A stretch of DNA of 51,609 nt, from NCBI GenBank assembly GCA_026984935.1, contig JALSRD010000064.1, forward strand, positions 1 through 51,609, written 5' to 3'. Source of the DNA: Desulfobacterales bacterium (GTDB lineage Bacteria > Desulfobacterota > Desulfobacteria > Desulfobacterales > JALSRD01). The stretch's first letter is position 1. Every line of letters begins with the position of its first letter. The notes beneath the pieces were generated by a model that did no database searches, had not been told where the DNA came from, and was given only the letters and a program-made list of their open reading frames with translations. Below, piece after piece: positions 23,812-41,287 of this stretch. Position numbers and translations under genes: made by a program.

Positions 23812-23863
23812 AGCGCAGCTCCAGGCGCCTCCGCTGCAAAAAGGCATGCTGCAAAAAGGCCTC

Positions 23864-25318: not shown

Positions 25319-25319
25319 G

Positions 25320-25991: not shown

Positions 25992-26014
25992 AATCGAAGA
26001 CGGAAACAGCCGCT

Positions 26015-27360: not shown

Positions 27361-27819
27361 TCAGCGTATGGCCAATATCCACCAGCGCCGGCCCTGTTTC
27401 AACAGCGTAAACGTCGTTTTGCGAAGGCCTTTTTCAGATGTAACATTAAAATCGACAAAAGCCTTATTGGCGCGAAGCTTGATGATCGGCCGGCCGAACT
27501 GCACGTGGGACTGCATTTCCCGGGGCAAATGCTTAAGATAGGTTCTCCGGTCCACAATGCGCATTTCCTGCTGCAGCCAGAAAGTCGCATGCCGGTGCAG
27601 CAACTTCGCATAGGCAGCCGTGTCCCTGCGGTTCCAGGCGTCCTGGACCTGCAACAGCAGGGCGCGGATTTCCGCTTCGGCCATGGACTGCGGCCGGTAG
27701 GCCTTCAGATCCGCCTGGCAGGCATACAACGGCAGGGCCGCGATTAAAGCCGCCAGCCATTTGGATATGGCGCCCATCCTGCGTTTCACATCCGGCCGGC
27801 AGGCGGCTGACGGCCGCAT
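27361..27819 (-). CDS. Lipoprotein with NTF2-like fold (152 aa)
   Basis: Arg-rich n-region, hydrophobic core and lipobox LPLYAC (Cys at about residue 34) indicate a lipoprotein. The remainder matches NTF2/DUF4440-like cone folds: IRALLLQVQDAWNRRDTAAYAKLLHRHATFW, then strands ending in LLKQGRRWWILAI. The function is unknown. Such domains often bind small ligands or cell-wall components. Its ATG overlaps the stop of the flavoprotein-rhodanese gene by one base, so it is probably the last gene of the long sulfur/electron-transfer array. An ATG at 27777 is an alternative start. Confidence 0.7.
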   Translation of the reverse strand: MRPSAACRPDVKRRMGAISKWLAALIAALPLYACQADLKAYRPQSMAEAEIRALLLQVQDAWNRRDTAAYAKLLHRHATFWLQQEMRIVDRRTYLKHLPREMQSHVQFGRPIIKLRANKAFVDFNVTSEKGLRKTTFTLLKQGRRWWILAIR

Positions 27820-29546
27820 CAGGTTTCGCCCTTTCCGGCAGAGGTAAACTCCGGATCGCTGGTCATCAACATGCCGTAGCCGCCCTGCACGTTCAGGGTG
27901 TCTCGGATGCCGTGGCTTTTTAAAAGCAGCTGGGCTTCATAGGACCGCGGCCCGGTGTTGCAGAGCAGGCACAGCACTTCCCCTGCCGGAACCTCGTTCA
28001 TGCGGGCCGCCAGCTCCTCCTGCGGGATGTTCACCCAGCGGTCGCCATAGGCCGCCTCGAAGGGGCGCGATTCCGAGGGTGAACGCACGTCCAGCACCTT
28101 GGTCTTTTTATCTTTAAACATGGACAGAAAATCCGCCACATCAATGGGCCTGTTCTGCCCCAGGATGATGTTTTCAAGAGTATTGGCGGCATTGTTGACA
28201 ATGTCCATGGCCGAGGCAAACGGCGGTGCGTAGGACACTTCCAGATTGGAAACAGCTGCGATATCGGCTTCGTACGGCAGCAGCGCCGCCACGGCATCCA
28301 CCCGTGCCTTGACGGCATCCCCGCTTTTGCCCAGAGCCTCGATTCCCAGCACGCGCCGGGTGCCGCGGTCGGCAATCAGTTTCATGTACATCAGTTCCTG
28401 GGTAGGGTAGAAATGGGCCCGGTCCGACTGCACGACGATGGAGTACACAGGATCGAAACCGGCCGCGGCGGCCTGCTTGACGGTCAGTCCGGCACGTGCG
28501 ATGCCCAGGTCAAACACCTTGAGGCAGAAGGATCCCACCGTGCCCTTGAAGTGGTCACAGCCCCCGTTGATATTGGTTCCGATGACCCGCCCCTGCCGGT
28601 TTGCCAGCGAGCCCAGGGGCATGGGCACCTTCTGACCGCTCACCAGGTGCGTCAATTCCACACAATCGCCGCCGGCGTAAATATCCGGGTCGCTGGTGCG
28701 CAGGCAGCGATCCACCAGAATGCCGCCGTGGCCGCCGATGGCCAGCCCGGCTTCGGCGGCCAATTCGGCATTGGGCCGCACGCCCACGGCCAGAATCACC
28801 ATGTCACAGGGGATTCTCGAACGGGTCGTCTGCACGGCGGCGACACCGTTTTGCGCATCCCCTAGGATTCTGGTTACGCCCTCGGAGAGCAGAACATTAA
28901 CACCTTTTGCGCTCATATGGTTCTGGATCAGACGGCTCATGTTGCTGCCGAAAGCCGTCGGCAGGAGTTGGTCCATCATCTCCACCAACGTGGTTTCAAC
29001 GCCCCACAGGTCGGTGAGCGCTTCGGCCATTTCCACGCCGATGGCACCGCCGCCAATGACCACGGCGCGATTCACCTTTCCTGCGGCGATGGCATCCTTG
29101 ATATGCTTGGCATGGTGTAAATTGGCCACCACGGTAACCCCCGGCAGATCAGCACCGGGGATCGGCGGCACCACTGGCTTGGCACCGGTTGCCAGCACCA
29201 GTTTATCGTATTTGAGGTCTTCAACGTCATCGGTGGGCATCAGACGCACGGTCACCTTTTTGGCCTGACGGTCGATGTGCAACGCTTCGGTGCGCTCCCT
29301 GATCGCGACTCCCTTGCAGGCCTGAAAAAACTTGCGGTTCCTGACAGCATGCGAACTCGTCGAGCGCAGCCCCTCCAGGTCGGCCACGTCTCCGCCCACG
29401 TAGTAGGGAATGCCACAGCCGCCGTAAGAGATCAGGTAATCCCGGTCGACGATGGTTACCTGTGCCTGCGGGTCCAGCCGCTTTATCCTGCAGGCCGCCT
29501 TGGGCCCCAGAGCCACCGCTCCGATGATCAGAACTTTACGCGCCAT
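27819..29546 (-). CDS. CoA-disulfide reductase-like flavoprotein with C-terminal rhodanese domain (575 aa)
   Basis: A pyridine-nucleotide-disulfide oxidoreductase: N-terminal FAD site (VLIIGAVALGPKAACRI), redox-active cysteine in YGGCGIPYYVGG, NAD site AVVIGGGAIGVEMAEAL, FAD-contact GGDCVE, then a dimerisation domain. From about residue 480 a rhodanese domain follows with the active loop CNTGPR. Related Cdr/Npsr enzymes reduce CoA disulfide, CoA persulfide or polysulfide with NAD(P)H; the rhodanese domain would hand over persulfide sulfur. The ATG at 29546 has AGGA upstream and begins the FAD motif, so I reject the 48-residue extension. Neighbouring DsrE genes fit sulfur trafficking. Confidence 0.9.
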   Translation of the reverse strand: MARKVLIIGAVALGPKAACRIKRLDPQAQVTIVDRDYLISYGGCGIPYYVGGDVADLEGLRSTSSHAVRNRKFFQACKGVAIRERTEALHIDRQAKKVTVRLMPTDDVEDLKYDKLVLATGAKPVVPPIPGADLPGVTVVANLHHAKHIKDAIAAGKVNRAVVIGGGAIGVEMAEALTDLWGVETTLVEMMDQLLPTAFGSNMSRLIQNHMSAKGVNVLLSEGVTRILGDAQNGVAAVQTTRSRIPCDMVILAVGVRPNAELAAEAGLAIGGHGGILVDRCLRTSDPDIYAGGDCVELTHLVSGQKVPMPLGSLANRQGRVIGTNINGGCDHFKGTVGSFCLKVFDLGIARAGLTVKQAAAAGFDPVYSIVVQSDRAHFYPTQELMYMKLIADRGTRRVLGIEALGKSGDAVKARVDAVAALLPYEADIAAVSNLEVSYAPPFASAMDIVNNAANTLENIILGQNRPIDVADFLSMFKDKKTKVLDVRSPSESRPFEAAYGDRWVNIPQEELAARMNEVPAGEVLCLLCNTGPRSYEAQLLLKSHGIRDTLNVQGGYGMLMTSDPEFTSAGKGET

Positions 29547-29690
29547 TTTCCTGTTCCTTGTCTTGGGTCTGCGTGCCGTCTCCAGCCGGGGGTTCCGGCA
29601 CATCTGCCGCATTGTTTCGGCGGTAACCGGCCCTGCCGGCCATCGTCTTTCCGTTTTTCCGCAACGGGCTTTCCTGGTTTCACTTGGCAA

Positions 29691-30053
29691 CTACAGGCTG
29701 ATCACGGCGGCGTCATCGCAGGCCGCCTGTATCAATTCCGATGCCGGTGCCAGTCTGGCACCCTCGATCAGGTCATCTTCGGAAATGCGCCGGGCCTTGG
29801 CACACGGCGTACAAACCAGGATGGGAACGCCCTTGGCCTGCAGATAGGTCATGAGATCATCGGCAATGTCGCCGGTGGCGGCACGCAGATAATCCAGAAG
29901 CCCCTCTTTGGCCAGATAAACGGCATCATCCAGCAGAAAAACGGTGACATTTTTCCCCGCTTTGTGCGCCACGGTAGCCAAGTGAATCCCCCGGGTCGAA
30001 CGGTTGGGATTGTCTGTACCGCAGGAAATTACGATAACGACGTTTTCAGACAT
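29691..30053 (-). CDS. DsrE-family sulfur carrier (120 aa)
   Basis: A single DsrE/DsrF-like domain: VVIVISCGTDNPNRSTRGIHLA, GKNVTVFLLDDAVYLAKEG, and a conserved cysteine region VPILVCTPCAKARRIS, followed by LIEGARLA. The CTPC cysteines sit where DsrE proteins carry their persulfide-bearing Cys. Members accept sulfur from TusA or rhodanese partners. AGGAGG lies just upstream of the ATG. It is encoded between the DrsE_2 protein and the rhodanese-flavoprotein, and its closest match in the window is the 124-aa DsrE at 32360-32734. Confidence 0.88.
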   Translation of the reverse strand: MSENVVIVISCGTDNPNRSTRGIHLATVAHKAGKNVTVFLLDDAVYLAKEGLLDYLRAATGDIADDLMTYLQAKGVPILVCTPCAKARRISEDDLIEGARLAPASELIQAACDDAAVISL

Positions 30054-30299
30054 CTAAAGCCTCCTGTCAGTAGGTAGCGGTCATTCTCGCCTTCAACGGC
30101 CGCAGGTCCGCTGCGAGGTCATAAAATACAGCAGATAAGCCGCCTGTAAAGGCTTTGTAATTGATATTTTCAGAAAAACAGGGAAGGATTGACGTAGGCA
30201 GTAATCGGGGAAAAGGCGGCAGCCAAACTGCCGGCACAATGGGTATCCTGAACTCCGCGCCATTTCCAGGTCAATCTTATGCCTGGGCCTTACAAATAA

Positions 30300-30325
30300 G
30301 TCCCGGCGGCAGCCACCGCCGGGAC
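30300..30325 (-). terminator. Strong hairpin, likely terminator or attenuator
   Basis: GTCCCGGCGG and CCGCCGGGAC form a perfect 10-bp stem with a 6-base loop. On the minus strand it is followed by ACTTATTTG, a weak U-rich tail. It lies about 30 bp after the stop of the DrsE_2 gene and could partly terminate transcription before the downstream DsrE gene. The remaining gap bases, 30054-30299, show nothing else. Confidence 0.55.
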
Positions 30326-30353
30326 AGCGGCGGTAGATAGAGCAGTGCGGTCG

Positions 30354-30911
30354 CTATATAAACAGGCTCACCTTGCTCTGGCCGGACTCCTGCAGAAACT
30401 TCGCCACGCCAGCCAGTGTGACATGGGGATAATCGATCATCTCTTCGGCGGAGAATCCCATCAGGTCCATGGACATCTCGCAGATGACGATCTCGACACC
30501 GGAATCGGCCGCCGTCTGCATCAGCTCTTCCAATGAAAGTACGCCCTTTTGCTTCATCAGGGTTTTCATCATGCGTGTGCCCATGCCGGCCATGTTCATG
30601 TGCGAAAGCCTCAGGCCGCCGGAACCTTTGGGCAGCATTTGGCCGAACATCTTGGCCATGACGTCTTCCTTTTTCACCTTCTTGTGGCGATCGCGCAGTG
30701 CGCTGATGCCCCAGAAGGTAAAGAACATGACCACGCGCTCGTACATGGCGGCCGCCCCCACGGCAATGATAAACGCGGCCAGCACGCGGTCCAGGTCGCC
30801 GCTGAAAACCACCATCGAGAGCTGATCCTCGGCGGCGTTGTTGCTCAGATTTTCAATCTGCTGCTCAAGATCTTCAATCTTCTTTTCGAGTTTCGTGAGT
30901 CTGGATTCCAT
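30354..30911 (-). CDS. DsrE/DsrF/DrsH-like (DrsE_2) protein with N-terminal coiled coil (185 aa)
   Basis: An N-terminal coiled coil (LTKLEKKIEDLEQQIENL) leads into a DrsE_2-type domain with the characteristic LSMVVFSGDLDRVLAAFIIAVGAAAMYERVVMFFTFWG spread over residues 32-69, and a C-terminal segment with Cys in VEIVICEMSMDLMGFS. Its hydrophobic helices suggest membrane association, as in other members. The family co-occurs with rhodanese, TusA and CoA-disulfide-reductase genes and is believed to move sulfane sulfur. It has its own promoter candidate upstream (30949-30979) and a hairpin downstream, so it may be separately regulated within the array. Confidence 0.88.
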   Translation of the reverse strand: MESRLTKLEKKIEDLEQQIENLSNNAAEDQLSMVVFSGDLDRVLAAFIIAVGAAAMYERVVMFFTFWGISALRDRHKKVKKEDVMAKMFGQMLPKGSGGLRLSHMNMAGMGTRMMKTLMKQKGVLSLEELMQTAADSGVEIVICEMSMDLMGFSAEEMIDYPHVTLAGVAKFLQESGQSKVSLFI

Positions 30912-30948
30912 GGTGTTCTTCTATCTGCCTCCCAATTTTTTTAAATAT

Positions 30949-30979
30949 CTTATACACAGAATACACAGATTCTGTCCAA
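30949..30979 (-). promoter_or_regulatory. Promoter with operator in its spacer, upstream of the DrsE_2 gene
   Basis: On the minus strand TTGGAC (30979-30974) is followed after 17 bp by TGTATA (30956-30951), with TATAAG overlapping. ACAGAAT/ATTCTGT (30956-30975) with a 6-bp spacer fits almost exactly between the two hexamers, an arrangement typical of MerR- or repressor-controlled promoters. The regulator is unknown. Confidence 0.45.
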
Positions 30980-30996
30980 AAAGCGGTTTTGATATT

Positions 30997-31070
30997 GAAA
31001 AAGGCTCCCCTGCTTACGCCGTCATGCCCGCTTTGGTTACCACTTTTGGCAGCGAAAGGCAAAGGAGCCC
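30997..31070 (-). terminator. Possible terminator or structured RNA after the 87-aa gene
   Basis: GGCTCC (31003-31008) pairs with GGAGCC (31064-31069). On the minus strand the closing stem is followed directly by five T residues (plus-strand 30998-31002), and the 55-base interior can fold further (TGCC/GGCA). The position is about 120 bp after the stop of the 87-aa gene. The large loop is unusual for a simple terminator. I matched it to no riboswitch class. Confidence 0.35.
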
Positions 31071-31188
31071 GAAGTTAATTTTGTGAAACGCTTTTTTCCC
31101 GCAACATACCCCTCGTGTTCAACCGGCGCCAAAAGCGGCCTGTTGACATTTCAAGTGCTTCAGAAAGTGATCGCGCATCCGCCGGGCA

Positions 31189-31452
31189 TCAGTCCGTATC
31201 GGAATACATTTCTCCCTCGGGGACTTTTTCGCCCGGCGCCCAGGTCGAGCAGTCAGCCAGCGGTACCTGTTCCCCGGGTCGTATTTCACGCTCTACCCAT
31301 ACGATGCGCGTATTGCAGTCAAAAACCCTGCGGCCCAGTTCCTGCTGACGTTTTTTAAGCGCCGCTTCGGCGGCTTCCCTGGTTTCGTGCACTGAAAGAA
31401 CGGGCTTGGTAATTTTTTCAAGGTTGTGTTCGTCATAAATCAGGGCGTACAT
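31189..31452 (-). CDS. Uncharacterised small protein (87 aa)
   Basis: A soluble alpha/beta protein beginning MYALIYDEHNLEKITKPVLS, then a helix (HETREAAEAALKKRQQEL), strands containing CNTRIVWVEREI and an acidic tail. Two cysteines (near residues 46 and 68) are present. I recognise no family. The start is firm because AGGAGGTG lies directly upstream of the ATG; longer in-frame extensions lack any ribosome-binding site. It follows the 234-aa gene by 97 bp on the same strand in the middle of the sulfur-transfer array and may serve that system. Confidence 0.65.
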   Translation of the reverse strand: MYALIYDEHNLEKITKPVLSVHETREAAEAALKKRQQELGRRVFDCNTRIVWVEREIRPGEQVPLADCSTWAPGEKVPEGEMYSDTD

Positions 31453-31549
31453 GGCAGGCACCTCCTTGATCCATTCGGGTTTGCTGACGGAGTTTGACAC
31501 TCGGCAGACGCAAGCCCCGACATTGCCTGCATTTGCCGGCGATAGGGCA

Positions 31550-32254
31550 TTACTCGAAAAAACGCTTTTCGTATTGAATGCCGGCCTGGTCAAACTCCTG
31601 GTAAAGCAGCGCCAGGCGCTGATTGGCCACCACCACCGCCTCCGGCCTTTCCTCGGCTTCCCTTTCGGTTGCAAAGCACCCGACGCAACGCTGGTAATGC
31701 CCGGTTCTTCCCAGGGTGGTGACGGCAAAATCACAGGTCAAAAAGGTCTGCTTATTTTTTTCATGGGCAAAATGCTCGACGGCCGGGACAAACTCCAGAA
31801 AGATTTCGACCGATACCGCATTGCCCTCCTTCGCGACATTGATGTAGTCGTGAATGGTCATCAGAGGCCCGCTGTCTTCCTTCTGGTCCTCAAATTTGAC
31901 CACCATGTCGTCCAGGGTGAACATGCGGTCGGCCACTTCAATGCCGCTTTTCCGGAGCCGGCGCAGGTCCCGCTGCAGGTAGCGGTTGGCGATCATGATG
32001 GCCTGGGCCACATGCGGGCACAGATTGTGCGGGCAGCCGCGCGCGTAGCATTTCCTGAACTGGTAGTTTTCATCGTCCACGGAGCCCTTGAAGCGGCACA
32101 GAAAGATATAGGCTTGGAATTGGGTTTTCTGGTGTACAAAATCCACCGGCAGCACTTCAAAGGACGGTTCGCAGGTCACCTGCGCGCCTGCCTTTTTCAG
32201 CTCCACCAGGTCGGTGACTCGTCGCGGTGGTTTATGGACCTCTGTACCTTCCAT
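31550..32254 (-). CDS. Uncharacterised cysteine-containing protein (234 aa)
   Basis: A soluble protein with no recognised family. Cysteines cluster in KCYARGCPHNLCPHVAQA (about 68-85) and QRCVGCFA (about 189-195), with others in VTCEP, LCRF and LTCDF. The spacing C-x4-C-x4-C with adjacent His could bind a metal or an Fe-S cluster. Aromatic strands (FQAYIFLCRFKG) and helical segments alternate, and a GGGAGG ribosome-binding site precedes the ATG. It lies between DsrE and the 87-aa protein in an array of sulfur carriers and Hdr-like subunits, so a redox or sulfur-binding role is plausible from context only. Confidence 0.7.
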   Translation of the reverse strand: MEGTEVHKPPRRVTDLVELKKAGAQVTCEPSFEVLPVDFVHQKTQFQAYIFLCRFKGSVDDENYQFRKCYARGCPHNLCPHVAQAIMIANRYLQRDLRRLRKSGIEVADRMFTLDDMVVKFEDQKEDSGPLMTIHDYINVAKEGNAVSVEIFLEFVPAVEHFAHEKNKQTFLTCDFAVTTLGRTGHYQRCVGCFATEREAEERPEAVVVANQRLALLYQEFDQAGIQYEKRFFE

Positions 32255-32359
32255 GATGCCTCCCTTCCCCTTTTCGTCGTCCTGGGATCTGCCGGCGGAC
32301 AGCCGCCCCCTTTCCAGGCTTACCGTTCAGCAGAAATCGGCACGGTCCAAGGGAATAAG

Positions 32360-32734
32360 CTAATATACGAAAACGGCATCGGCTTCCAGGGCATCCACAT
32401 TCAGTTGACCGGCGGCCGTTGTTTTGGAGCCCTCGACCAAGTCGGATTCTTTGATATGGCGCTCCTGTATGCACGGCACACAGACTCTCAAATCGCCTCC
32501 CAGCTCCAGGAAATCAGTCAACAGTTTTTTAAGAGGAGGAAAGCCGCCGGGAGCTACCATGGTGTCCACAAACCCTTTCATAGCGATATAAACCGCTTCG
32601 CCCTGGAGCACCACCGTAGCCTTAACATCCATGGCCAGCGCCGCATTCGCCATTACAAAGGGCATGGCCGCCTTTTCCGCGTTGTCGTTTGCATGCGTGC
32701 AAAAATACATAATTCTTTCTTCTTTTTCCGCCAT
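32360..32734 (-). CDS. DsrE-family sulfur carrier (124 aa)
   Basis: A DsrE-like domain similar to the 120-aa protein at 29691: an N-terminal strand (RIMYFCTHANDNAEKAAMPF), a central VKATVVLQGEAVYIAMKG and the conserved cysteine loop LRVCVPCIQERHIKESDLVEG. The paired cysteines C-x2-C correspond to the sulfur-carrying position. AAAGGA precedes the ATG. It directly follows the QmoC-like gene in transcription order, so it is a candidate to shuttle persulfide between TusA and the Hdr-like complex. Confidence 0.88.
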   Translation of the reverse strand: MAEKEERIMYFCTHANDNAEKAAMPFVMANAALAMDVKATVVLQGEAVYIAMKGFVDTMVAPGGFPPLKKLLTDFLELGGDLRVCVPCIQERHIKESDLVEGSKTTAAGQLNVDALEADAVFVY

Positions 32735-32878
32735 GGGTCAAATCTTTCCTTTCTTTAGAGTTTTGGTTGCAATGTCTTGGGTTGCGTTTGTGGCCCCGCC
32801 GGCAATCACCGGGTTATTGCTCTGTTCATCCTGCCCCCATCCTTAATCCTTGAAATACTGCCAGCAACAGATGCATCG

Positions 32879-34048
32879 TTAGTAGGCTGCTTTCAAAGCC
32901 TGTTCGCGCACACCCATCAGGTACTGCACCAATGGACGGTAGAGCTGATGGGTCCACTTGGCAAAGGGCACTTCGACCACCAGCATGGGAACAGCGATCA
33001 TCAGGTGAATCACATAGATGTAATAGGTGCTCATGGGCATTTCCAGCAGGCGGAACACATGGACCAGAAAACCGGTGAAGGTGGTCAGCCAGAGCATGAT
33101 CAAAAAAGCCCAGTCCGAAGAGTGCGAGTGCTCGTACACCGTCTTGCTTTTTTTGAGCCTGCCGATGATGGCATATGTCACCCCGTACAGAATGGCGAAG
33201 GTGCAGTAATAGCCGATCAGCCGGATCGGGTTCCAGATCGAATAGATCTCATCGCGCTGGAACCAGCGGATGCCGACCACCACCAGCAAAAAGACCAGGG
33301 TATAGCCGGTCATGATCAGCAGGTGGACAAACCACTGCACGCGCTGTGTGCGTGTGCCGCAGGCGCCGAACTGCTTCTGAGTGAAAAAGTGCAACACAAA
33401 GGCCTTGAACTGGGACAGATAGATCGGTACCGGAATGCCGCGCAGCAGCCGGTTCTGGAACTGCTGTTTGGCGCTCTGGCTCAATGCCGGGTATTGTGCC
33501 GGATCGCCCATCACTTTCAAGAACAACCGCAGGCCGTTGCTCAAAAGGAAGAAGGACAGCACGCCCAGCATGATCAGGTCGAGGCGTTCGATGACGCGGT
33601 TGGGGGCAAACACATTCAGCGCCACCCGGTCGGTCAGCATGGGGCCGTGGAAACGGTAGAACCCCAGACCCACCAGTGCACCCACCAGCAAAATCGAAAA
33701 AATCTCGAACACCTTCGATGTGTAAAAAAGGCGCGAAATGCCGGTCCAGTCGTACAGGGTGGTCAGGTAGCGGCGCAGCCCCATCATCACTTCGCCGGGG
33801 TTGGCCTGCCGCGGACAGGTTTCGCTGCAGTCGCCGCAATAGTAGCAAAGCCATGGCTCAGGGCTTTGCAGCAGCTTGTCTTTGGCACCCACCTGCAGGT
33901 AGCGGATCACTTTGCGTGGAAACGGCGTGGATTCGCTTGACAGCGAGCAAACAGCCGTACAGTTTCCGCAGTTAAAACAAATACTGGCGTCCTTGACACC
34001 GAACTTTTTAAGATTCAACAGGAGGTCGGGATCAACTGCTGTGGTCAT
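32879..34048 (-). CDS. QmoC/HdrC-HdrE-like membrane subunit (389 aa)
   Basis: The N-terminal 100 residues carry two HdrC-type [4Fe-4S] motifs, CFNCGNCTAVC and CYYCGDCSETCP. The rest has about six transmembrane helices with several His residues suited to haem b ligation, like the NarI/HdrE cytochrome b of QmoC, and the length (about 390) matches QmoC. It would connect the cytoplasmic HdrA-like flavoproteins to the menaquinone pool. ATG at 34048 with GGGAG is preferred over a TTG 15 bases upstream. An authentic QmoC in the sulfate-reduction locus would be next to aprBA, which is not seen here. Confidence 0.9.
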   Translation of the reverse strand: MTTAVDPDLLLNLKKFGVKDASICFNCGNCTAVCSLSSESTPFPRKVIRYLQVGAKDKLLQSPEPWLCYYCGDCSETCPRQANPGEVMMGLRRYLTTLYDWTGISRLFYTSKVFEIFSILLVGALVGLGFYRFHGPMLTDRVALNVFAPNRVIERLDLIMLGVLSFFLLSNGLRLFLKVMGDPAQYPALSQSAKQQFQNRLLRGIPVPIYLSQFKAFVLHFFTQKQFGACGTRTQRVQWFVHLLIMTGYTLVFLLVVVGIRWFQRDEIYSIWNPIRLIGYYCTFAILYGVTYAIIGRLKKSKTVYEHSHSSDWAFLIMLWLTTFTGFLVHVFRLLEMPMSTYYIYVIHLMIAVPMLVVEVPFAKWTHQLYRPLVQYLMGVREQALKAAY

Positions 34049-34128
34049 GATTGTTCTCCCCAAAACCGTTTATGCTTCTGCCGCCGGAAGTCGATGCCCT
34101 GCGCCTTCCGGCAATGCCTGCCGCCTGA

Positions 34129-34419
34129 CTACTTGGGCGCCAGCTCGTATTTGAAATAGTCCCCGTCCTTGGGGCCTTCGATGACCATGCCGTACTTTTT
34201 CAGGCTCGCCACGTAAACCAGGACCTGGTCCGTCGGCAAACCGGCACCGGCAGCGATTTCCGGAATGGTTTTGCCGCCGCTTTTCATCTGTTCACGGATG
34301 GCTTTAACGTTTTGATTCTGGGCCTTGATGGCCTTGCGGGCACGTTCGATGCTCGCCTTGCGCTGCTGGCGAAGGGCTTTCAACCCCTCCTTATCGCTTT
34401 TTTTTTGATCACTCATCAT
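34129..34419 (-). CDS. Small winged-helix-like protein (about 96 aa)
   Basis: The first half is a strongly charged helix (LKALRQQRKASIERARKAI). The second half looks like a winged helix: KTIPEIAAGAGLPTDQVLVYVASLKKYG followed by a short wing and strand (DYFKYELA). It could bind DNA or a protein partner. ATG codons at 34419 and 34416 are equally good; a GTG lies six bases upstream. It sits between the HdrA-like and QmoC-like genes on the same strand, suggesting a dedicated accessory or regulatory role, not proven. Confidence 0.72.
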   Translation of the reverse strand: MMSDQKKSDKEGLKALRQQRKASIERARKAIKAQNQNVKAIREQMKSGGKTIPEIAAGAGLPTDQVLVYVASLKKYGMVIEGPKDGDYFKYELAPK

Positions 34420-34485
34420 CGTCACCAGATTATCACGTTAGGGATATCCGAATTTTAAAATACGGGCTTTCGTTTCAACCGCCTG

Positions 34486-36387
34486 CTAGTCCGCCACAAT
34501 GGCATCGACCATGGCTTCGTACTGCTCCAGCGTCCAACCCTTGACGTCGATGGCATTTTCCGGGCAGACCGCCACACAAACTCCGCAACCGGTGCACAGG
34601 GCGGGGTTGACCTCCGCACGTTCGACCGACTGACCGTCAACCTCGACGGTCTGCATCACGATGGCGTCGACGGTGCAGGCCGCGACACAGGCGCCGTTTC
34701 CTTTGCAGCGCGAAAGATCTACCTGTGCCACAAAGGGATCCAACTCCACATATCCTTTGGAAAGCAAACTGGTAGCCTTGGCCGCCGCCGCCGCCGCCGC
34801 ATTGCAGGCCTCGCTGATGTCCATGGGCGCCTGGCAGGTTCCGGCCAGCAGGATACCGGTATTCGCCAACTCGACAGGCCGCAGCTTGGGATGTACCTCC
34901 TGCAGGAAACGGTCCGCCCCCACCGGCAGCTTCATCATATCCACCAGGTCGGCGATGCGGCTGGGCACCATGCCCACCGACAGCACCACCAGATCCACAT
35001 CGGCCGAAAGCGCTTCTCCGAAAGTCAGGGTGTCTTTGACAGTCACCCGCAAAGGGAAATTCCCCTTGGACAGCCGCTCCACCTGCGGCGGATCCTCGGG
35101 TTCATAGCGCAAAAACATCACATGGTTTTCGGAGGCGCGCTCGTAAAATTCCTCCTGGCCACGTCCGTAAGTGCGGATATCACGGTAGTACTCCAGAACA
35201 TGCGTTAACGGATAACGCTCACGTATCTCGCTGGCGGCCTGCAGCGTGGCAGCGCAGCAGGTCCGCGAGCAGTATTCGTTCAGGCCGCCGTCCGCATCGG
35301 GCTCGTGGATGCCCGGGATCTGGCGGCTGCCCACACAGTGTACCAGGGCCACACGGCGGATGGTCCGGCCGTTGATAGTCAGGGAGCGGCCCCGCGATTT
35401 TTCCTGCGACATGAACCGGATCAGCTGGGGCAGCGTGATGACTTCCGGGTTTTGGCCATAGCCGAATTCTCCGTCCCGCGGGGTATAGGTGGAAAATCCG
35501 GTGGCGAAAACGATCGCTCCGCTGTCCAGCACCTGTTCACTGGCGGTGGTCGGCACCTTGACCGCCAAAAAACCCGCAAAAGGCACAAAGCGGCCCGGCT
35601 TTTCACCCTTGGCTGCAACTTCCTGCAGCTTTTCGAGATCCGCCTGCGAGTCAGGCGGCTGGGTTTTCAGGGTGATTTTGAAATTGCCCACATAGCCTTC
35701 GGACTTGACGATGCGGCTGCAGGTGTAAACGCGGATGCGGGAATCCGCCATGACCTTTGCGGCCAAATCCTGAATCAGATCGGCAGCCCGTTCACCGGTG
35801 GGTACGATTCTTTCCAGGTTGGCGGCCTGGCCGCCGAGAAAAGGCGATTTTTCGATCAGCGCCACTTCGATACCGCGCTGGGCCAGGTCCAGTGCCGCCC
35901 GCAGGCCGGCAATGCCTCCGCCGATCACCGTTGCATGCCGGGCGGCATCCACCTTGATGGGGTCTAAAGCCTCCAGCTCCTTGGCCTTGGCTACGGCCGC
36001 AGTGACCAGCGAGGTGGCTTTGGCAGTCGCCGCTTCACCGTGGTGCACCCAGCTGACCTGCTCGCGGATGTTGGCGTGTTCGTACAGATAGGGGTTCATG
36101 TCGGCGCGCTTGATGGCCCCGCGGAAAGTGGTTTCGTGCAGGCTTGGTGCGCATGAGGCCACTACCACACGATTGATCTTGCCGCTTTTGATGTCTTCCT
36201 GGATCAGTTCCTGGCCGGGATCCGAACACATGAACATGTTGGTGTGCGCCACGGCAACACCGGGGACTTTTTCAAGGTTCTCCGCCACCTTTTTGACATC
36301 CACATGATCTGAAATATTGCCCCCGCAGTGGCAGATATAGACGCCGACCCTGGGCTCCTCCGTTTCCGCTGTCTTCTTCGTTGACAT
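34486..36387 (-). CDS. hdrA: HdrA-like iron-sulfur flavoprotein (633 aa)
   Basis: A full-length HdrA-type protein. The N-terminal segment has VGVYICHCGGNISDHVDV, then the FAD site (TVIGGGIAGLRAALDLAQRG), a central region with HCVGSRQ and YCSRTCCAATLQAA, and near the C-terminus two [4Fe-4S] motifs, CKGNGACVAAC and CTGCGVCVAVCP. HdrA in methanogens is the flavin that bifurcates electrons between ferredoxin and heterodisulfide; in sulfate reducers related QmoB and FlxABCD-HdrABC complexes do similar work. It follows a second HdrA-like gene and precedes the QmoC-like subunit. A run of seven alanines near residue 530 is a curiosity. Confidence 0.92.
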   Translation of the reverse strand: MSTKKTAETEEPRVGVYICHCGGNISDHVDVKKVAENLEKVPGVAVAHTNMFMCSDPGQELIQEDIKSGKINRVVVASCAPSLHETTFRGAIKRADMNPYLYEHANIREQVSWVHHGEAATAKATSLVTAAVAKAKELEALDPIKVDAARHATVIGGGIAGLRAALDLAQRGIEVALIEKSPFLGGQAANLERIVPTGERAADLIQDLAAKVMADSRIRVYTCSRIVKSEGYVGNFKITLKTQPPDSQADLEKLQEVAAKGEKPGRFVPFAGFLAVKVPTTASEQVLDSGAIVFATGFSTYTPRDGEFGYGQNPEVITLPQLIRFMSQEKSRGRSLTINGRTIRRVALVHCVGSRQIPGIHEPDADGGLNEYCSRTCCAATLQAASEIRERYPLTHVLEYYRDIRTYGRGQEEFYERASENHVMFLRYEPEDPPQVERLSKGNFPLRVTVKDTLTFGEALSADVDLVVLSVGMVPSRIADLVDMMKLPVGADRFLQEVHPKLRPVELANTGILLAGTCQAPMDISEACNAAAAAAAKATSLLSKGYVELDPFVAQVDLSRCKGNGACVAACTVDAIVMQTVEVDGQSVERAEVNPALCTGCGVCVAVCPENAIDVKGWTLEQYEAMVDAIVAD

Positions 36388-36457
36388 TGCCTATCTCCAG
36401 TTTGCTGAAAAATTTCCCGACTTGCCCGGAAACATACCGAAAGTCGGCGGCCTGCCG

Positions 36458-37762
36458 TCAGGCCGCTTTTGGATTTTCAAGGGCATTGAGATATTTGGAT
36501 GCCTCCATGGCCGCCGCGCCGGCTTCGGCAATGGTGTCGACAATATCCTTGGGGCCGATGGCCACACCGGCAGCAAAAACGCCCTCGATGCTTGTGACGG
36601 TGGGCGCCAGGCTGGGGATGGTGGATTTGATAAAGGCATCCGTATCACAGGCCACGTCACAAACGCCCGCCGGGTTCCAGTCCGGCACCATGCCCAGCGA
36701 CATGACCACCAGGTCATGTTCCCGTTCGACCACACCGCCATTGCCCTCCTGGTCTTCGTAGCGCAGCCGGACATACTGGTTGTCTGCCTGTTCGATTTTG
36801 GCGATCTTGGCCTTGACGAACTCGATGCCCATGGCCTTGGCATTCTGGAAGAACTGTTCATAGCCTTTCCCGAAAGCCCGGATATCCATGTAGTAGATGG
36901 TAATATCGGCCAGCGGCAAAGCGCCCGACAGCAGCATGGCCTGCTTGATGGCATACATACAGCAGACCCGTGAACAGTATGGTACTCCCAGGGTTTTGTC
37001 GCGGGAGCCGGCACACTGAACGTAGGCAATGGAATCCGGCTCCTTGCCGTCCGACGGTCGGATCACGCGCTGGTAGGGACCGTGGGGTGCCAGCAGCCGC
37101 TCCATGTCCAGCGAACTGATCAGGTTCTGGATTTTTCCGCCGCCGTACTGCGGTTTCTGATCCATGGGCGTCAGTTTGAATCCGGTGGCCAGAACAGCGG
37201 TTTTGGCACGGATCACAAAATCCTCGGGTTGCTGAAAATAATCCACCGCGCCCGTCGGGCAGACCTTGGCGCATTTGCCGCACAACGAGCAGTTTTCCAC
37301 GTCCATCAACGCGATTTGCGGTATGGCGTTTGAAAACGGTATGTAGATGGCCTTGCGGAAGTTAAAATTGCCTTCTTCGTGGTTGGGTACATACACCGGA
37401 CAACCATACTCGCACTGGCGGCAGCCGATACATTTGTCGGCATCCACATAGCGCGGCATCTGGGTGATGTCCGCCTTGATCTCCTGCCCGTCGCGTTTGA
37501 GCGAGGTCAGATCGCAGTATGTAAAAATGGAAATGTTCTCGTGGTGGGCGGATGCCGCCATCTTGGGCGTGGTGATGCAGCTGGCGCAGTCCAGCGTGGG
37601 GAACACCTTTGACAGCCGGATCATCTTGCCGCCGATGGTGGCGTCTTTCTCCACGATGGCCACCTTGAAATTCTGATCCGCAAGGTCCAATGCCGCCTGT
37701 AGTCCGGCAATACCGCCGCCAATCACAAGCGCGTCGAAATTCAACTCACGACTCGGTTCCAT
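36458..37762 (-). CDS. HdrA/QmoA-like flavoprotein with inserted ferredoxin domain (434 aa)
   Basis: A shorter HdrA-like protein: FAD site (ALVIGGGIAGLQAALDLAD), the HdrA cysteine motif TLDCASCITTPKM, an inserted ferredoxin domain (CIGCRQCEYGCPVYVPN and CSLCGKCAKVCPTGAVDYF), then QCAGSRD and YCSRVCCMYAIKQAM. It lacks the C-terminal ferredoxin of the 633-aa partner. The two resemble a QmoA/QmoB-like pair but with the iron-sulfur motifs distributed differently, since standard QmoA carries none. The ATG at 37762 has AGGAG upstream; a start 27 bases earlier is less likely. It lies between the MvhD-like and HdrA genes. Confidence 0.9.
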   Translation of the reverse strand: MEPSRELNFDALVIGGGIAGLQAALDLADQNFKVAIVEKDATIGGKMIRLSKVFPTLDCASCITTPKMAASAHHENISIFTYCDLTSLKRDGQEIKADITQMPRYVDADKCIGCRQCEYGCPVYVPNHEEGNFNFRKAIYIPFSNAIPQIALMDVENCSLCGKCAKVCPTGAVDYFQQPEDFVIRAKTAVLATGFKLTPMDQKPQYGGGKIQNLISSLDMERLLAPHGPYQRVIRPSDGKEPDSIAYVQCAGSRDKTLGVPYCSRVCCMYAIKQAMLLSGALPLADITIYYMDIRAFGKGYEQFFQNAKAMGIEFVKAKIAKIEQADNQYVRLRYEDQEGNGGVVEREHDLVVMSLGMVPDWNPAGVCDVACDTDAFIKSTIPSLAPTVTSIEGVFAAGVAIGPKDIVDTIAEAGAAAMEASKYLNALENPKAA

Positions 37763-37835
37763 GAAATTCTCCTGCACCCCCGCATGCAACCGGCACGCTG
37801 CCGGTCGGATCCGGGATTAGATTCGCCCGCAATGC

Positions 37836-38264
37836 TCAGGCCGCCTCTTTGTATTCCGGCGGTCCGAGCTCTTCAATCAACTTATTCATTTCGTTGACTT
37901 CCTTGAGAAAGGCCCGGTTGCAGACCGTACAGATGGCGGTCAGCCGCAGCCGGCGTATATCCAGGTTGTGGGCCTTCATCATCTGAAAGACATTGTCGAT
38001 GCGCTTGGCCAGGGCATGGTAGGCGCCCTCATACGGGCACTCCTCACCGCAGGACATGATGATAATTCCGCCGATACCCTTTCTAAAGCAGTCTATATAG
38101 AACTTTTCGGGAAACAGCACCGGCGCACGTACCCGCAGGATATAGGTATTCGCCGGATAGGGGGAATGCGCCTGGCCGACGGAATTGGCCCCCGGATACG
38201 CACAGCTTTCGGTGGCCAGAATCAGAATCTTTCCCTTATTGGAATTGGCTTTATCGGCTGACAT
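37836..38264 (-). CDS. MvhD/HdrD-delta-like iron-sulfur protein (142 aa)
   Basis: A stand-alone MvhD-type domain: ILILATESCAYPGANSVG, VRAPVLFPEKFYIDCFRKG, IIIMSCGEECPYEGAYHAL, and CTVCNRAFLKEVNEM. The cysteines ligate a [2Fe-2S] cluster that links HdrA to a hydrogenase or formate dehydrogenase in methanogens. In QmoB this domain is fused to the flavoprotein, while here it is separate. AAGG precedes the ATG. Together with the two HdrA-like proteins and the QmoC-like subunit it completes a plausible complex. No hydrogenase or dehydrogenase partner is encoded in the window. Confidence 0.9.
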   Translation of the reverse strand: MSADKANSNKGKILILATESCAYPGANSVGQAHSPYPANTYILRVRAPVLFPEKFYIDCFRKGIGGIIIMSCGEECPYEGAYHALAKRIDNVFQMMKAHNLDIRRLRLTAICTVCNRAFLKEVNEMNKLIEELGPPEYKEAA

Positions 38265-38431
38265 GATATCCTTATCCGTTTTTGGTTCGCCCTGCCGGCA
38301 ACGGGGTCGCCGGATCAGCCGGCAAATGCGCTTTCAAAATCCATTTTGCCTGTCACCCGCACTTTGATCAATGCAGCGACATGCTGCGCAATACCCCCCA
38401 CTCTGCCCGCAGGTATGCGTTTTTTCCTCAG

Positions 38432-38686
38432 TTACTTTTTGCGCCGCACGTAGTGTTTGTCATAACCGTCGGCTTCCAAAAATCCGAGGTATTCATGGCC
38501 GACTTTCTTAGCCCAGGCCTGCAGGTCCGTGCGTGTGCCCGAGTCGTTGGAAAAAATTTCCAGAACTTCGCCGACCTTGACTTTGCCGATGCCCTTCTTG
38601 GCTTCCAGCAGCGGTCCCGGACAGGCACTGCCCCTGGCGTCTACATTGCTTGCAAACTCGATGGTGCTCAAATCAACATCTGACAT
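38432..38686 (-). CDS. tusA: TusA/SirA-family sulfur carrier (84 aa)
   Basis: A canonical TusA: VDARGSACPGPLLEAKKGIGK with the CPxP motif whose cysteine carries the persulfide, then GEVLEIFSNDSGTRTDLQAWAKKVGHEYLGF. The length is typical. It probably takes sulfur from a desulfurase or rhodanese and passes it to DsrE proteins or to the Hdr-like complex encoded downstream. It lies 167 bp before the MvhD-like gene and 136 bp after the cysteine-less TusA-like gene. Confidence 0.93.
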   Translation of the reverse strand: MSDVDLSTIEFASNVDARGSACPGPLLEAKKGIGKVKVGEVLEIFSNDSGTRTDLQAWAKKVGHEYLGFLEADGYDKHYVRRKK

Positions 38687-38707
38687 GGTTTTCCTCCTTG
38701 GCTTAAC

Positions 38708-38757
38708 TGGTTGCTTGGGTTACTTGGGTTTATTGGGTTTATTGGGTTGCTCGGGTG
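38708..38757. repeat. 9-bp tandem repeat
   Basis: About five tandem copies of a 9-bp unit close to GGGTTTATT lie between the two tusA-like genes: (T)GGTTGCTT, GGGTTACTT, GGGTTTATT, GGGTTTATT, GGGTTGCTC. It lies in the leader of tusA on the minus strand (AATAAACCC units), so copy-number changes could alter translation spacing or RNA structure. Confidence 0.75.
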
Positions 38758-38822
38758 AAGGCAATTCTGTCAGCACCCATCTTTTATCCAGAAACCCCCT
38801 TGGTCTTTGGCCTTTAACCTTT

Positions 38823-39128
38823 TCATGGCAGCTGTGAAGATGAGCAGCCGCATTTTCCGGATTCTGCGGCCTGGCCGGATTTTTTCTTTATCAGGATCCG
38901 GCAGGCCTTCGCTTTGGCCACGGCAGTTTCAACCGTTTCCATGCTGATCAGTTCGTAGGAGGAGGCGGGCAGCACCTTGAACAGTGCCGCTGTGTCGGCC
39001 GGCTCTCCCCACAACACTTCCAGAATTTCTCCCACCTGGATCTCCCGAAAAGTCTGGCTGACTTTCAACAGGGTGAACGGAGTCAACAAACCCCGCAAAT
39101 CCAGTTTATGCGCGCTCTGGTTTTGCAA
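38823..39128 (-). CDS. TusA-like protein lacking the CPxP cysteine, with Cys-rich tail (101 aa)
   Basis: The fold matches TusA: KLDLRGLLTPFTLLKVSQTFREIQVGEILEVLW, but LTPF replaces the usual CPxP, so no persulfide can form at the normal position. A C-terminal tail with KCGCSSS offers two cysteines instead. I place the start at TTG 39128, with AAGG shortly upstream, because the longer ATG-type start at 39209 would lie upstream of the -24/-12 promoter at 39164-39179. It is the first gene of the Hdr/DsrE array. A scaffold, decoy or alternative sulfur acceptor role is possible. Confidence 0.75.
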   Translation of the reverse strand: MQNQSAHKLDLRGLLTPFTLLKVSQTFREIQVGEILEVLWGEPADTAALFKVLPASSYELISMETVETAVAKAKACRILIKKKSGQAAESGKCGCSSSQLP

Positions 39129-39163
39129 TGACCTTACCTTGCAACATGGTTTGCCCTGGTTTC

Positions 39164-39179
39164 TGCAAACATGGTGCCA
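39164..39179 (-). promoter_or_regulatory. Sigma-54 (-24/-12) promoter of the sulfur-transfer array
   Basis: The minus strand reads TGGCAC, five bases, TTGCA, a perfect match to the -24/-12 consensus with GG and GC at the right spacing. Transcription would start about 12 bp downstream (near 39153), 25 bp before the TTG start of the TusA-like gene. A sigma-54 activator is encoded divergently 190 bp away, which strongly supports function. Confidence 0.8.
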
Positions 39180-39319
39180 ATAGCGTCGCCGCCGGGACCA
39201 AATGCCCATAAGGCAACCGATGCTGAACCGGCCGGGGTGCTTTCCGGCAAAACGCTGTTCAAAAAAGTCTGAAAAATATCCCGCCGGTCAAAATTAGAGT
39301 TGCCCGTTAAATGTTAAAG

Positions 39320-39369: not shown

Positions 39370-40740
39370 ATGTTTGAACAGGAGCTGAACGCATACTGGA
39401 AAACCGTGGTCGATACCATTCAGGACGGCGTTATGATTGTCGATACGGCCGGCACCATTGTTTCCGCCAACCAGGCCTTTGAAGCCATTACTGGTTACAA
39501 ACCTTCTGAGATAATAGGCAAATCATGCTCTATTCTCAACTGTAACGGCTGCGAAGCGGCCCGTGAGAAAAACGATCCCCACTGGTGCCTGCTCTTTAAA
39601 CAGGGCCTGCTGAAAAAACAGCGCTGCGTCTTGATGCGTAAAGACGGAAGCTATCTGCACATTCTGAAAAATGCGTCCGTGCTGTGTGACACACGCGGCA
39701 AGGTCATGGGAGCCGTGGAAACCATGACCGACATTACCGAACTGCTGGACAGAGACACAAAGATCGAAGCCTTTCAGCGCGAACTGCGCGCCGAGGACAG
39801 CTTCCACGGCATCATCGGCACTTCCGCCGCCATGCAGCGCGTCTTCGATCTCATCACCAATGCCGCGCATTCGGATGCACCGGTGATCATTTTCGGTGAA
39901 AGCGGCACCGGCAAAGAACTGGTGGCAAGAGCCATTCACAAGAACGGCCCCCGCCGACAGCGCCCCTATATCAAGGTAAACTGCGCGGCTTTGAATGAAT
40001 CCCTGCTGGAGAGCGAACTCTTCGGGCATGTCAAAGGCGCCTTCACCGGAGCCTTCCAGACCCGCAAGGGGCGCTTCGAAGCGGCCGCCGGCGGGGATAT
40101 TTTCCTGGATGAAATCGGAGACCTGCCCCTTTCAACACAGGTCAAGCTGCTGCGCGTGCTCGAAGAACAGGTCATCGAACGTGTGGGGGATAACCGCCCC
40201 ATACACATCAACGTGCGTATCATTTCGGCTACCAACCGCGATCTCCCGCATCTCGTACGGCAGGGAGCTTTCCGCGAAGACCTGTTTTACCGCATCAACG
40301 TCATTCCCATTCACGTCCCCCCCCTGCGCGAGCGCATCGGCGACATCCCTGTCCTGGCGGAAACTTTTTTTCACAAGATCAGCCTCAAGAGCGATAAGCA
40401 TATCGGCGGAATCAGCCGCCCGGCCATGGAACTGCTCATGCGTTATCCCTGGCCCGGAAATGTGCGCGAACTCAAAAGCGCTTTCGAATATGCCTTTGTC
40501 ACCTGTCAGAACTCCTTGATTCAACCCATGGATCTGCCGCCAGGCATTCTGCAGTCCCCGCCGTCCGCAGCGCCGGCAAAAAAAAGATCAGATGACCGTA
40601 ATGAGATTAAAAAACAGGCACTTATAGAGGCTTTGCGAAAAACCAACGGCAATCAATCACGCGCCGCCGAGCTGCTGGGCATCTCCCGGGTTACGGTTTG
40701 GAACCGCATGAAACGCTATGGACTGCGTCCGGGAAGCTAA
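39370..40740 (+). CDS. Sigma-54-dependent transcriptional activator, PAS-AAA+-HTH (456 aa)
   Basis: PAS domain at about 8-125 containing a cysteine cluster (CSILNCNGCEAAREKNDPHWC region, residues about 57-77); AAA+ domain with Walker A GESGTGKE, the sigma-54-contact loop GAFTGA, Walker B DIFLDEIGDL and the arginine-finger region; and a C-terminal Fis-type helix-turn-helix (NQSRAAELLGISRVTVWNRM). There is no receiver domain, so it senses a signal directly. The PAS cysteines suggest a redox, sulfur or Fe-S input. GGAGG precedes the ATG. Divergent orientation and the -24/-12 sites on both sides make the Hdr/TusA array and the downstream transcript likely targets. Confidence 0.93.
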   Translation: MFEQELNAYWKTVVDTIQDGVMIVDTAGTIVSANQAFEAITGYKPSEIIGKSCSILNCNGCEAAREKNDPHWCLLFKQGLLKKQRCVLMRKDGSYLHILKNASVLCDTRGKVMGAVETMTDITELLDRDTKIEAFQRELRAEDSFHGIIGTSAAMQRVFDLITNAAHSDAPVIIFGESGTGKELVARAIHKNGPRRQRPYIKVNCAALNESLLESELFGHVKGAFTGAFQTRKGRFEAAAGGDIFLDEIGDLPLSTQVKLLRVLEEQVIERVGDNRPIHINVRIISATNRDLPHLVRQGAFREDLFYRINVIPIHVPPLRERIGDIPVLAETFFHKISLKSDKHIGGISRPAMELLMRYPWPGNVRELKSAFEYAFVTCQNSLIQPMDLPPGILQSPPSAAPAKKRSDDRNEIKKQALIEALRKTNGNQSRAAELLGISRVTVWNRMKRYGLRPGS

Positions 40741-40979: not shown

Positions 40980-40995
40980 TGGCATTTTAATTGCA
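40980..40995 (+). promoter_or_regulatory. Second sigma-54 (-24/-12) promoter
   Basis: TGGCAT, five bases, TTGCA: one mismatch from consensus in the -24 box, with invariant GG and GC correctly spaced. The expected start is near 41006. The only strong signal downstream before the terminator at 41077-41119 is non-coding structure, so it probably drives a short RNA. Confidence 0.65.
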
Positions 40996-41119: not shown

Positions 41120-41271
41120 CCGCCGATAAAATGCCGTCGCAACGATTTTTTAAAAACGTTACAAGAACGCCACCGCTACTCACGTAACGTATCGGACCCA
41201 CCGAAATCGGCGAACCAGGCTCCCGGTAAGGACCCTGTTTTTTCTTTACAGGGGCCGGTGGCACTGCTTTG

Positions 41272-41287
41272 TGGAACATCACCTGCA
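41272..41287 (+). promoter_or_regulatory. Weak third sigma-54-like promoter before the flavoenzyme gene
   Basis: TGGAAC, five bases, CTGCA keeps GG and GC at the correct spacing with two deviations. The start would be near 41299, about 100 bp before the ATG at 41400. The near-palindrome AACGATTTTTTAAAAACGTT (41141-41160) and the ACGTTAC/GTAACGT inverted repeat (41156-41190) lie 110-160 bp upstream, where an enhancer would be. Confidence 0.35.

Follow-up and report, generated by a model that had tools for sequence, protein, structure and literature searches.

The window analysed here, a stretch of 51,609 nucleotides from a Desulfobacterales bacterium (contig JALSRD010000064.1 of assembly GCA_026984935.1), makes up all of contig C64; the genome comprises 3.9 Mb in 112 contigs and is 99% complete. 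Its minus strand carries an array of Hdr/Qmo-like genes together with TusA- and DsrE-type sulfur carriers, which we discuss below as a possible protein-persulfide oxidoreductase (Table 1). In the order of transcription, the array reads TusA1, TusA2, MvhD, A, B, U98, C, E1, U234, U90, E2, E3, CDR, and a DUF4440-like open reading frame (ORF). The core gene set consists of a divergent sigma-54 activator, TusA, MvhD, the two flavoproteins A and B, the small U98, a subunit for electron exit, and a CxxC-containing DsrE.

Table 1. Features of the array and its divergent regulator, listed in the direction of array transcription
Feature	Description	Position in window	Strand	Basis
REG	PAS–AAA+ (sigma-54 interaction)–Fis-type helix-turn-helix (HTH) activator, divergent to the operon	39370..40740	+	Pfam
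Sigma-54-type site	Putative -24/-12 promoter site TGGCACCATGTTTGCA, directed into the operon	39164..39179	-	Consensus pattern match
TusA1	Degenerate TusA	38823..39209 (listed ORF)	-	PF01206, 28.9 bits (cut-off 28.6)
TusA2	TusA sulfur carrier with CPGP Cys22, core	38432..38686	-	PF01206, 65 bits
MvhD	MvhD/FlpD electron-transfer protein, unfused, core	37836..38264	-	PF02662
A	HdrA-like flavoprotein, 443 aa, FAD core with inserted two-cluster ferredoxin, core	36458..37789	-	Alignment to solved HdrA
B	HdrA-like flavoprotein, 633 aa, N-terminal Fe-S domain and C-terminal ferredoxin, core	34486..36387	-	Alignment to solved HdrA
U98	98-aa winged-helix protein with long N-terminal helix, core marker	34129..34425	-	Conservation, structure model
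C	QmoC-like membrane subunit, HdrC-type two-cluster domain and membrane domain	32879..34063	-	NF038018, 183.6 bits (cut-off 300); tree
E1	DsrE-family sulfurtransferase with CxxC, core	32360..32734	-	PF02635
U234	Cys-rich protein, fold unassigned, accessory	31550..32254	-	Invariant Cys; structure model
U90	Small ORF, accessory	31189..31449	-	ORF list; similar ORF in few loci
E2	DrsE_2 (DsrE2-like), lineage-specific	30354..30911	-	PF13686
Hairpin	Intrinsic-terminator-like, 11 pairs (9 G-C), T-rich tail, 3' of E2	30300..30325	-	Pattern match
E3	Second DsrE	29691..30053	-	PF02635
CDR	CoA-disulfide/persulfide-reductase-like protein with rhodanese domain	27819..29690	-	Domain scan
DUF4440-like ORF	DUF4440-like protein	27361-27819	-	Pfam, 25.0 bits, just below cut-off 25.2

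A sequence-only reading of this stretch had listed two HdrA-like flavoproteins, a separate MvhD-like protein, a QmoC-like subunit, two TusA, two DsrE, a DrsE_2 protein, a CoA-disulfide reductase with rhodanese domain, and several unassigned ORFs, without apr genes. ORFs and domain scans place all of these gene types where it had named them on the minus strand, MvhD being indeed a separate gene, and tblastn with the host's AprA gave no match in the window. The two TusA-like proteins both match PF01206, but TusA1 does so weakly and has LTPF in place of CPGP, with loss of the active-site Cys. Among the ORFs taken as unassigned, the last one of the array encodes a DUF4440-like protein that falls just under the Pfam cut-off, and U98, U234, and U90 give weak Pfam matches only. 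The listed start of CDR is long, homology beginning at about residue 50. Domain scans of the 14 array proteins found neither hydrogenase subunits (MvhA/MvhG; the rest of the window was not scanned) nor the lipoate-binding protein LbpA (the rest of the window and the genome were not searched), and no CCG-domain protein (HdrB) or DsrC-like protein was seen among them. No match to metV or metF was found in the window.

Conservation was assessed over 66 loci, including the window, which were picked by C or by A and never by sulfur genes. A scan of genomes with C, of which the best 80 of 358 relatives were kept, was supplemented by further genome searches with C and with A, the latter being found in 13 of 58 relatives. 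The repeats L180, L102, L104, and L199, as well as L184 (the other operon half, in the genome of L021), were dropped from the count, and those loci among the best 80 relatives that are not cluster loci are called other QmoC loci below. Counts refer to loci "with room", meaning that their stretch extends far enough at the side concerned, many cluster loci being short-flanked. As TusA2 and E1 played no part in the choice of loci, their constancy counts as evidence in its own right. TusA2 and MvhD each lie upstream of A in 52/53 loci with room, the sole locus without both being L178, in whose genome dsrA was not found. U98 follows B in all 59 loci with room, and E1 follows U98 in 38/45. A divergent REG is present upstream in 33/48 loci and lies at the far end in L165, L170, L172, and L181. 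The sulfur carriers are therefore conserved with the Hdr-like genes, and the recurrence of the gene order in relatives goes beyond chance. Of the genes further downstream, U234 occurs in 15 of 33 loci with room, E3 in 5, E2 in 4, metV in 4, and CDR in 2. The reductase CDR, the second DsrE, and the DrsE_2 protein, which had been counted as part of the array, are lineage extras rather than core. The gene order, or parts of it, is also found outside Desulfobacterota, in loci titled Planctomycetes, Krumholzibacteriota, and Zipacnadia. In the flanks of the other QmoC loci examined, tblastn revealed neither TusA nor DsrE. Clustering of the flanking ORFs was uninformative, due to the predominance of shadow ORFs.

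The residues expected of sulfur carriers are retained. Cys22 of the CPGP motif of TusA2 is found in 55/55 rows of the alignment, and C85 and C88 of E1, which form an invariant CxxC, in 44/44 rows with a residue there (47 rows in total). A profile of E1 and its relatives matches solved DsrE- and YchN-type proteins. U98 contains no Cys; its structure model (predicted local distance difference test score, pLDDT, 91.6) gives winged-helix matches, the best being SqrR (E 1.4e-3). U234 has five invariant Cys (69, 74, 79, 190, and 193), and its model (pLDDT 80.9) found no PDB match at E <= 0.001 in the structure search.

The two flavoproteins cover different parts of HdrA. A aligns to residues ~142-560 of solved HdrA, that is, the FAD core with its inserted ferredoxin, and B to residues ~2-240 and ~320-650, that is, the N-terminal domain, the FAD core without the insert, and the C-terminal ferredoxin. 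By this coverage, A and B complement each other as the two copies of a split, duplicated HdrA. The four Cys near the FAD in HdrA are retained in both, without exception in 60 A rows and in the 58 B rows that cover these positions. The sequence-only reading had regarded the distribution of Fe-S motifs between the two flavoproteins as a peculiarity of this array; the division is present but not peculiar, as a control alignment indicates that QmoA and QmoB split HdrA in the same way. We do observe differences in detail: the Cys tested for the second inserted cluster is kept in 20/20 A sequences of the cluster and in 3/11 QmoA, B retains an N-terminal Cys (21) absent in QmoB, and B has lost one Cys of the first C-terminal cluster, which is present in 9/9 QmoB.

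In a tree of 65 rows, from which rows of at least 900 residues were left out, the A sequences of the cluster (20 rows) form one side of a branch with a support of 100 and join archaeal HdrA (93). The B sequences (19 rows) also form one side of a branch, weakly supported on their own (24) and with a support of 100 when L096 is included. QmoA (11 rows) and QmoB (9 rows) join each other (100), apart from both. This tree, like that of C below, is a quick search with Shimodaira–Hasegawa-like approximate likelihood ratio test (SH-aLRT) support only. AprA was not found in the covered flanks of any cluster locus, many of which are short, whereas it was found in 17 loci of other QmoC relatives and in the apr-qmo loci of genomes G000 and G001. 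The host itself has aprA on another contig (C13), beside a separate QmoABC. A canonical apr-linked QmoABC was therefore rejected, and the flavoproteins, whose position on such a tree had been left for checking, fall outside canonical QmoA/QmoB.

Two observations concern flavoprotein genes of particular relatives. In L142 and L144 (G007 and G038), the A gene contains one in-frame TGA and may thus encode a selenocysteine-containing variant of the kind reported among other HdrA. In L021 and L102 (G001, same genus), a distant second A-B set (31% and 23% identity) lies downstream of E3, with a QmoC- or HdrD-like match; it is another Hdr-type cluster adjoining the studied one.

The subunit through which electrons would leave or enter is variable. 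A full QmoC-like protein is encoded in 35 of the 66 loci; 18 have an HdrC-like protein of ~100 aa with a ~310-aa protein, and 5 an HdrD-like protein, which sits after E1; in the remaining 8 none is seen or the place is cut off. Pfam identifies CCG domains in L149 (~310-aa HdrB-like protein) and L168 (HdrD-like), the others being assigned by similarity. The HdrD-like exit of L168 matches the DsrK and TmcB models, far under their cut-offs. The QmoC-like C has 8 invariant Fe-S Cys, and its conserved His 247, 335, 353, and 372 are candidate heme ligands. The sequence-only reading had proposed a quinone-linked complex, for which this membrane subunit speaks; nevertheless, as the exit varies, the quinone link belongs to only one of three forms of the complex.

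The score of C on NF038018 lies well below that of the host's canonical QmoC (489.9 bits), but the cut-off of this model was dropped as a separator of C from true QmoC, because the apr-linked QmoC of L046 (206.7 bits) and L092 (201.2 bits) miss it too. In a tree of 94 sequences, 25 of the 35 cluster copies of C fall in one group (support 98), which also contains L105. A further six form a group (95) together with the fused QmoC of L106-L110 and two rows that are unassigned. L064 (98) and L170 (83) are placed with QmoC from Desulfarculaceae and Syntrophobacteraceae, part of which are apr-linked, and L087 and L173 each sit by themselves on a long branch. The C of the window falls with other QmoC, far from the host's canonical QmoC. 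C is related to apr-linked QmoC. Because L064 and L170 lie among QmoC of Qmo-type loci, the tree suggests that the membrane subunit has been exchanged repeatedly with apr-type Qmo. The loci L106-L110 (G020, G003, G056, G009, and G004) have a QmoC-like domain within a ~770-800-aa protein, adjoined by a ~1140-1160-aa HdrA-like protein matching B in two parts, plus MvhD, and are a further Hdr/Qmo architecture.

The operon is probably under sigma-54 control. The site in front of the array is the only one in the window, on either strand, with 11 matches out of 12 to the sigma-54 consensus. A site of this type (9-12 matches) directed towards tusA is found in 35/36 definable REG-TusA intervals, the window included, and an equal score is reached on average by 1.1% of shuffled intervals, the shuffles preserving base content only. 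As the listed ORF of TusA1 overlaps the site, its true start is probably the TTG at 39128. The hairpin behind E2 separates it from the E3-CDR pair and may end a unit there, terminator-like patterns as a class not being enriched (19 found vs 15.0 +/- 4.3 expected). A 277-bp gap before E2 would allow an earlier operon end, and E2 may form a transcription unit of its own. What had been taken for one array thus holds in part: TusA2, E1, and the Hdr-like genes probably belong to one sigma-54 unit, and neither carrier appears from promoter and terminator patterns to be transcribed separately, but there are probably two units, E3 and CDR forming the other.

The PAS region of REG is rich in Cys, with residues 53, 58, 61, 73, and 86 invariant in 38/38 sequences. 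A paralogue with 51% identity and the same Cys pattern is encoded on contig C29 of the host (L194, 4861-13704), where it adjoins genes for a DUF3373 protein, YeeE/YedE, TusA, an octaheme tetrathionate-reductase-family cytochrome (TIGR04315, 505 bits vs a cut-off of 375), and a thiosulfate-reductase-like cytochrome b. This locus has a probable role in thiosulfate/tetrathionate uptake and reduction. By this association of genes, the regulator family appears tied to thiosulfate, tetrathionate, or sulfane sulfur. Next to REG in the window, a sigma-54-type site (10/12; 40980-40995, plus strand) lies upstream of an old yellow enzyme (OYE)/dienoyl-CoA-reductase-like flavoenzyme (41271-43310), which may be in the same regulon as the operon.

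The distribution of A was examined in a sample of 395 genomes of the phylum (threshold E <= 1e-125), in which A is carried by 29 genomes, belonging to 21 of 245 genera, dsrA by 190, and acsB by 248. DsrA is encoded in 27/29 A-positive genomes, compared to 163/366 of the others. The two A-positive genomes without dsrA are of one genus and have only A, B, and U98 visible, one of them being cut by the contig start. Of the 27 genomes with both A and dsrA, 26 have TusA2 and MvhD, and the remaining one (L174) is cut by the contig end. No significant association was found with acsB (21/27 of the genomes with A and dsrA, 21/29 of all A-positive genomes; odds 1.6, p 0.32). The complex thus accompanies dissimilatory sulfite chemistry and can do without the Wood-Ljungdahl pathway.

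Taken together, these features lead us to suggest, with somewhat less than even confidence, that the operon encodes a reversible protein-persulfide:menaquinone oxidoreductase of the Hdr/Qmo type. The carriers would suit redox chemistry on a persulfide or a CoA-type disulfide, as the sequence-only reading had also supposed. Since the carriers and A-B are constant while the exit varies, the sulfur chemistry most likely takes place at the constant end. There, a flavoprotein heterodimer of A and B, together with MvhD, would exchange electrons with sulfane sulfur, which would be present as a persulfide on TusA2 and be passed to the CxxC of E1. The sulfane sulfur on TusA2 or E1 would be reduced to sulfide or formed from sulfide, with MvhD and the flavins of A-B as the path of the electrons in either direction. 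In the lineage of the window, the QmoC-like subunit would connect this path to menaquinone, while in relatives the HdrC and CCG-type protein, or the HdrD-like protein, would presumably exchange electrons with a thiol/disulfide partner, perhaps DsrC. The Cys-rich PAS activator REG would switch the operon on. Making persulfide from sulfide would be downhill if menaquinone accepts the electrons. The opposite reaction would need an additional donor of low potential acting through the flavins, a role that suits a flavin of the HdrA type. We infer the formation of a complex, the persulfide as substrate, the reversibility of the reaction, and a direction that depends on conditions.

Several points weigh against this assignment. 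E1 is absent from its place in 7/45 loci with room, though a more distant DsrE precedes TusA2 in three of these (L034, L041, and L088). The membrane form lacks HdrB, which leaves it without an obvious site for the sulfur chemistry. Owing to uneven sampling of lineages, the association with dsrA, which covers the phylum sample only, partly reflects shared ancestry. The divergent interval of L194 has no sigma-54 site of at least 10 matches. The presence of metV/metF near the core in 7/66 loci hints at another partner in some lineages, and TusA and DsrE could have a role in maturation or regulation.

The strongest of the alternatives, which we still consider unlikely, is that TusA and DsrE load DsrC with sulfane sulfur for sulfite formation or disproportionation. 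The Hdr/Qmo part would then only carry electrons between menaquinone and DsrC, the latter as a trisulfide or disulfide, and have no contact of its own with TusA or DsrE. The near-constant company of dsrA is as expected in that case, and the HdrD-like exit of L168, with its CCG domains and its sub-cut-off resemblance to DsrK and TmcB, would suit a DsrC-like partner. Loading of DsrC by DsrEFH type II and TusA has been argued for cable bacteria in the accessible part of PMC13293266. Nevertheless, the form in the window has no CCG subunit and the array no visible DsrC-like protein.

Less likely again is that TusA and DsrE serve the assembly or thiol repair of a complex very rich in Fe-S motifs, whose real substrate would be another low-potential donor or acceptor. 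TusA-family proteins do act in several thiolation pathways. The strict linkage of TusA2 and the frequent linkage of the CxxC DsrE, neither of them seen by tblastn near the other QmoC loci examined, argue against such a general function, as does the REG paralogue beside the YeeE-TusA-octaheme locus.

We regard it as improbable that A-B-MvhD is the electron module of the methylene-tetrahydrofolate reductase MetVF of the Wood-Ljungdahl pathway, the sulfur proteins being accessory. The proposal draws on MetV-like genes near the core in L022, L024, L027, L029, L103, L149, and L150, with MetF in six of them, and on the MetFV-HdrABC complex of Moorella, which presumably contains MvhD. This complex is named in the available text of PMC10553843. 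Nevertheless, metV lies downstream in only the 4 of 33 loci mentioned above (3.5 kb of room), 6/27 genomes with A and dsrA have no acsB, and host metF is found at two of its four places beside other HdrA-like genes (C32 and C100). A general Wood-Ljungdahl role was rejected, metV being sparse and acsB not associated. The two host loci themselves (L195 on C100 and L197 on C32) have MetF-type genes beside HdrA/HdrL-like proteins of 1415 and 913 aa, respectively, and C32 also has MvhD- and MetV-like ORFs. An ordinary QmoABC paralogue serving AprAB is highly improbable, in spite of the QmoC-like subunit and the parallel architecture of A/B and QmoA/QmoB, given the tree position of A and B, the lack of AprA in the covered flanks, and the host's own QmoABC by aprA on C13.

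Returning to the proposed persulfide:menaquinone oxidoreductase, the operon belongs to the Hdr/Qmo kind, and its nearest known counterpart is type II QmoABC, described in PMC10504309 (Neukirchen et al. 2023, citing Chernyh et al. 2020) as having HdrA-like QmoAB that are closer to HdrA than to canonical QmoAB, and a distinct type of QmoC. The likeness, which is by description only, would lie in these HdrA-like QmoAB and a separate QmoC. In the available text of that paper, type II QmoABC is reported with or without Apr and Dsr, its function is left open by the authors, and QmoAB-HdrBC and QmoAB-HdrD arrangements in sulfate reducers are mentioned, whereas no TusA, DsrE, MvhD, or winged-HTH neighbours, exit swap within the operon, or sigma-54 control is named. 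Our operon may be identical with type II Qmo. Type I QmoABC also has two HdrA-derived flavoproteins with the same domain division and a QmoC membrane subunit, all at the level of distant homology, but there MvhD is fused to QmoB and the genes are linked to apr, whereas here A and B form separate groups, MvhD is unfused, A retains both inserted clusters and B the complete N-terminal Cys set, and sulfur carriers are found instead of apr. The HdrABC-MvhADG and MetFV-HdrABC complexes share HdrA and MvhD with the operon, to which some relatives of the locus add HdrC plus a CCG protein resembling HdrB; here HdrA is split, TusA/DsrE are added, and the conserved core has no hydrogenase genes. A hydrogenase-linked Hdr was rejected, as neither HdrB nor a hydrogenase protein is among the array proteins.

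In the sHdr system, an Hdr-like, lipoate-dependent system of sulfur oxidation, paired HdrB1/HdrB2 play a role. Our operon has no such pair and no lipoate-binding protein in its conserved core, and its exit is a membrane QmoC-like subunit; sHdr was rejected for want of HdrB and lipoate proteins among those of the array. The principle of a TusA-DsrE sulfur relay beside an Hdr-like complex is shared, as far as the accessible parts of PMC6067878 and PMC4175335 describe it. The YTD/DsrEFH type II systems likewise combine TusA and DsrE-family proteins in Desulfobacterota with dsr genes (PMC13293266, PMC12998232, and PMC9751629, each in its available part). The bacterial YTD cluster contains YeeE/YedE and two conserved hypothetical proteins, and Hdr/Qmo subunits are not named in it in those texts; it was rejected because the host has YeeE-TusA only on the other contig, C29. 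Archaeal dsrEFH type II genes occur with dsrMK or QmoAB genes in the accessible part of PMC13293266, so a sulfur-relay/Qmo neighbourhood as such is already published. The gene order described here was not recognised in the literature searched, which included few subscription journals, nor seen in the available portions of papers on D. autotrophicum, T. dismutans, D. multivorans, cable bacteria, D. dismutans, and partners in anaerobic oxidation of methane.

How sulfane sulfur is linked to the respiratory chain in sulfate reducers and disproportionators is a standing question, and YTD/DsrEFH type II covers the transfer of sulfur, not of electrons. If our assignment is true, the operon is a directly testable complex and an uncharacterised route for partly oxidised sulfur. 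More broadly, and a little more tentatively still, it may represent a widespread Hdr/Qmo class, a sigma-54-controlled persulfide oxidoreductase of Dsr-bearing bacteria, in which a constant TusA-DsrE-A-B-MvhD part with a QmoC, HdrBC, or HdrD exit would be the missing electron link from cytoplasmic sulfane sulfur to the pool of quinone or of DsrC, whether sulfur is reduced, oxidised, or disproportionated. The three forms on one core suggest that Hdr/Qmo complexes have an electron exit that can be swapped as a module. U98 and the order TusA2-MvhD-A-B could serve as markers for the trait in metagenomes.

Beyond the 3' end of the array, the window contains a MacAB-like export set (22411-27265), which comprises a TolC-like protein, an HlyD-type protein, an ABC ATPase, and an FtsX-type permease and is convergent with the array.

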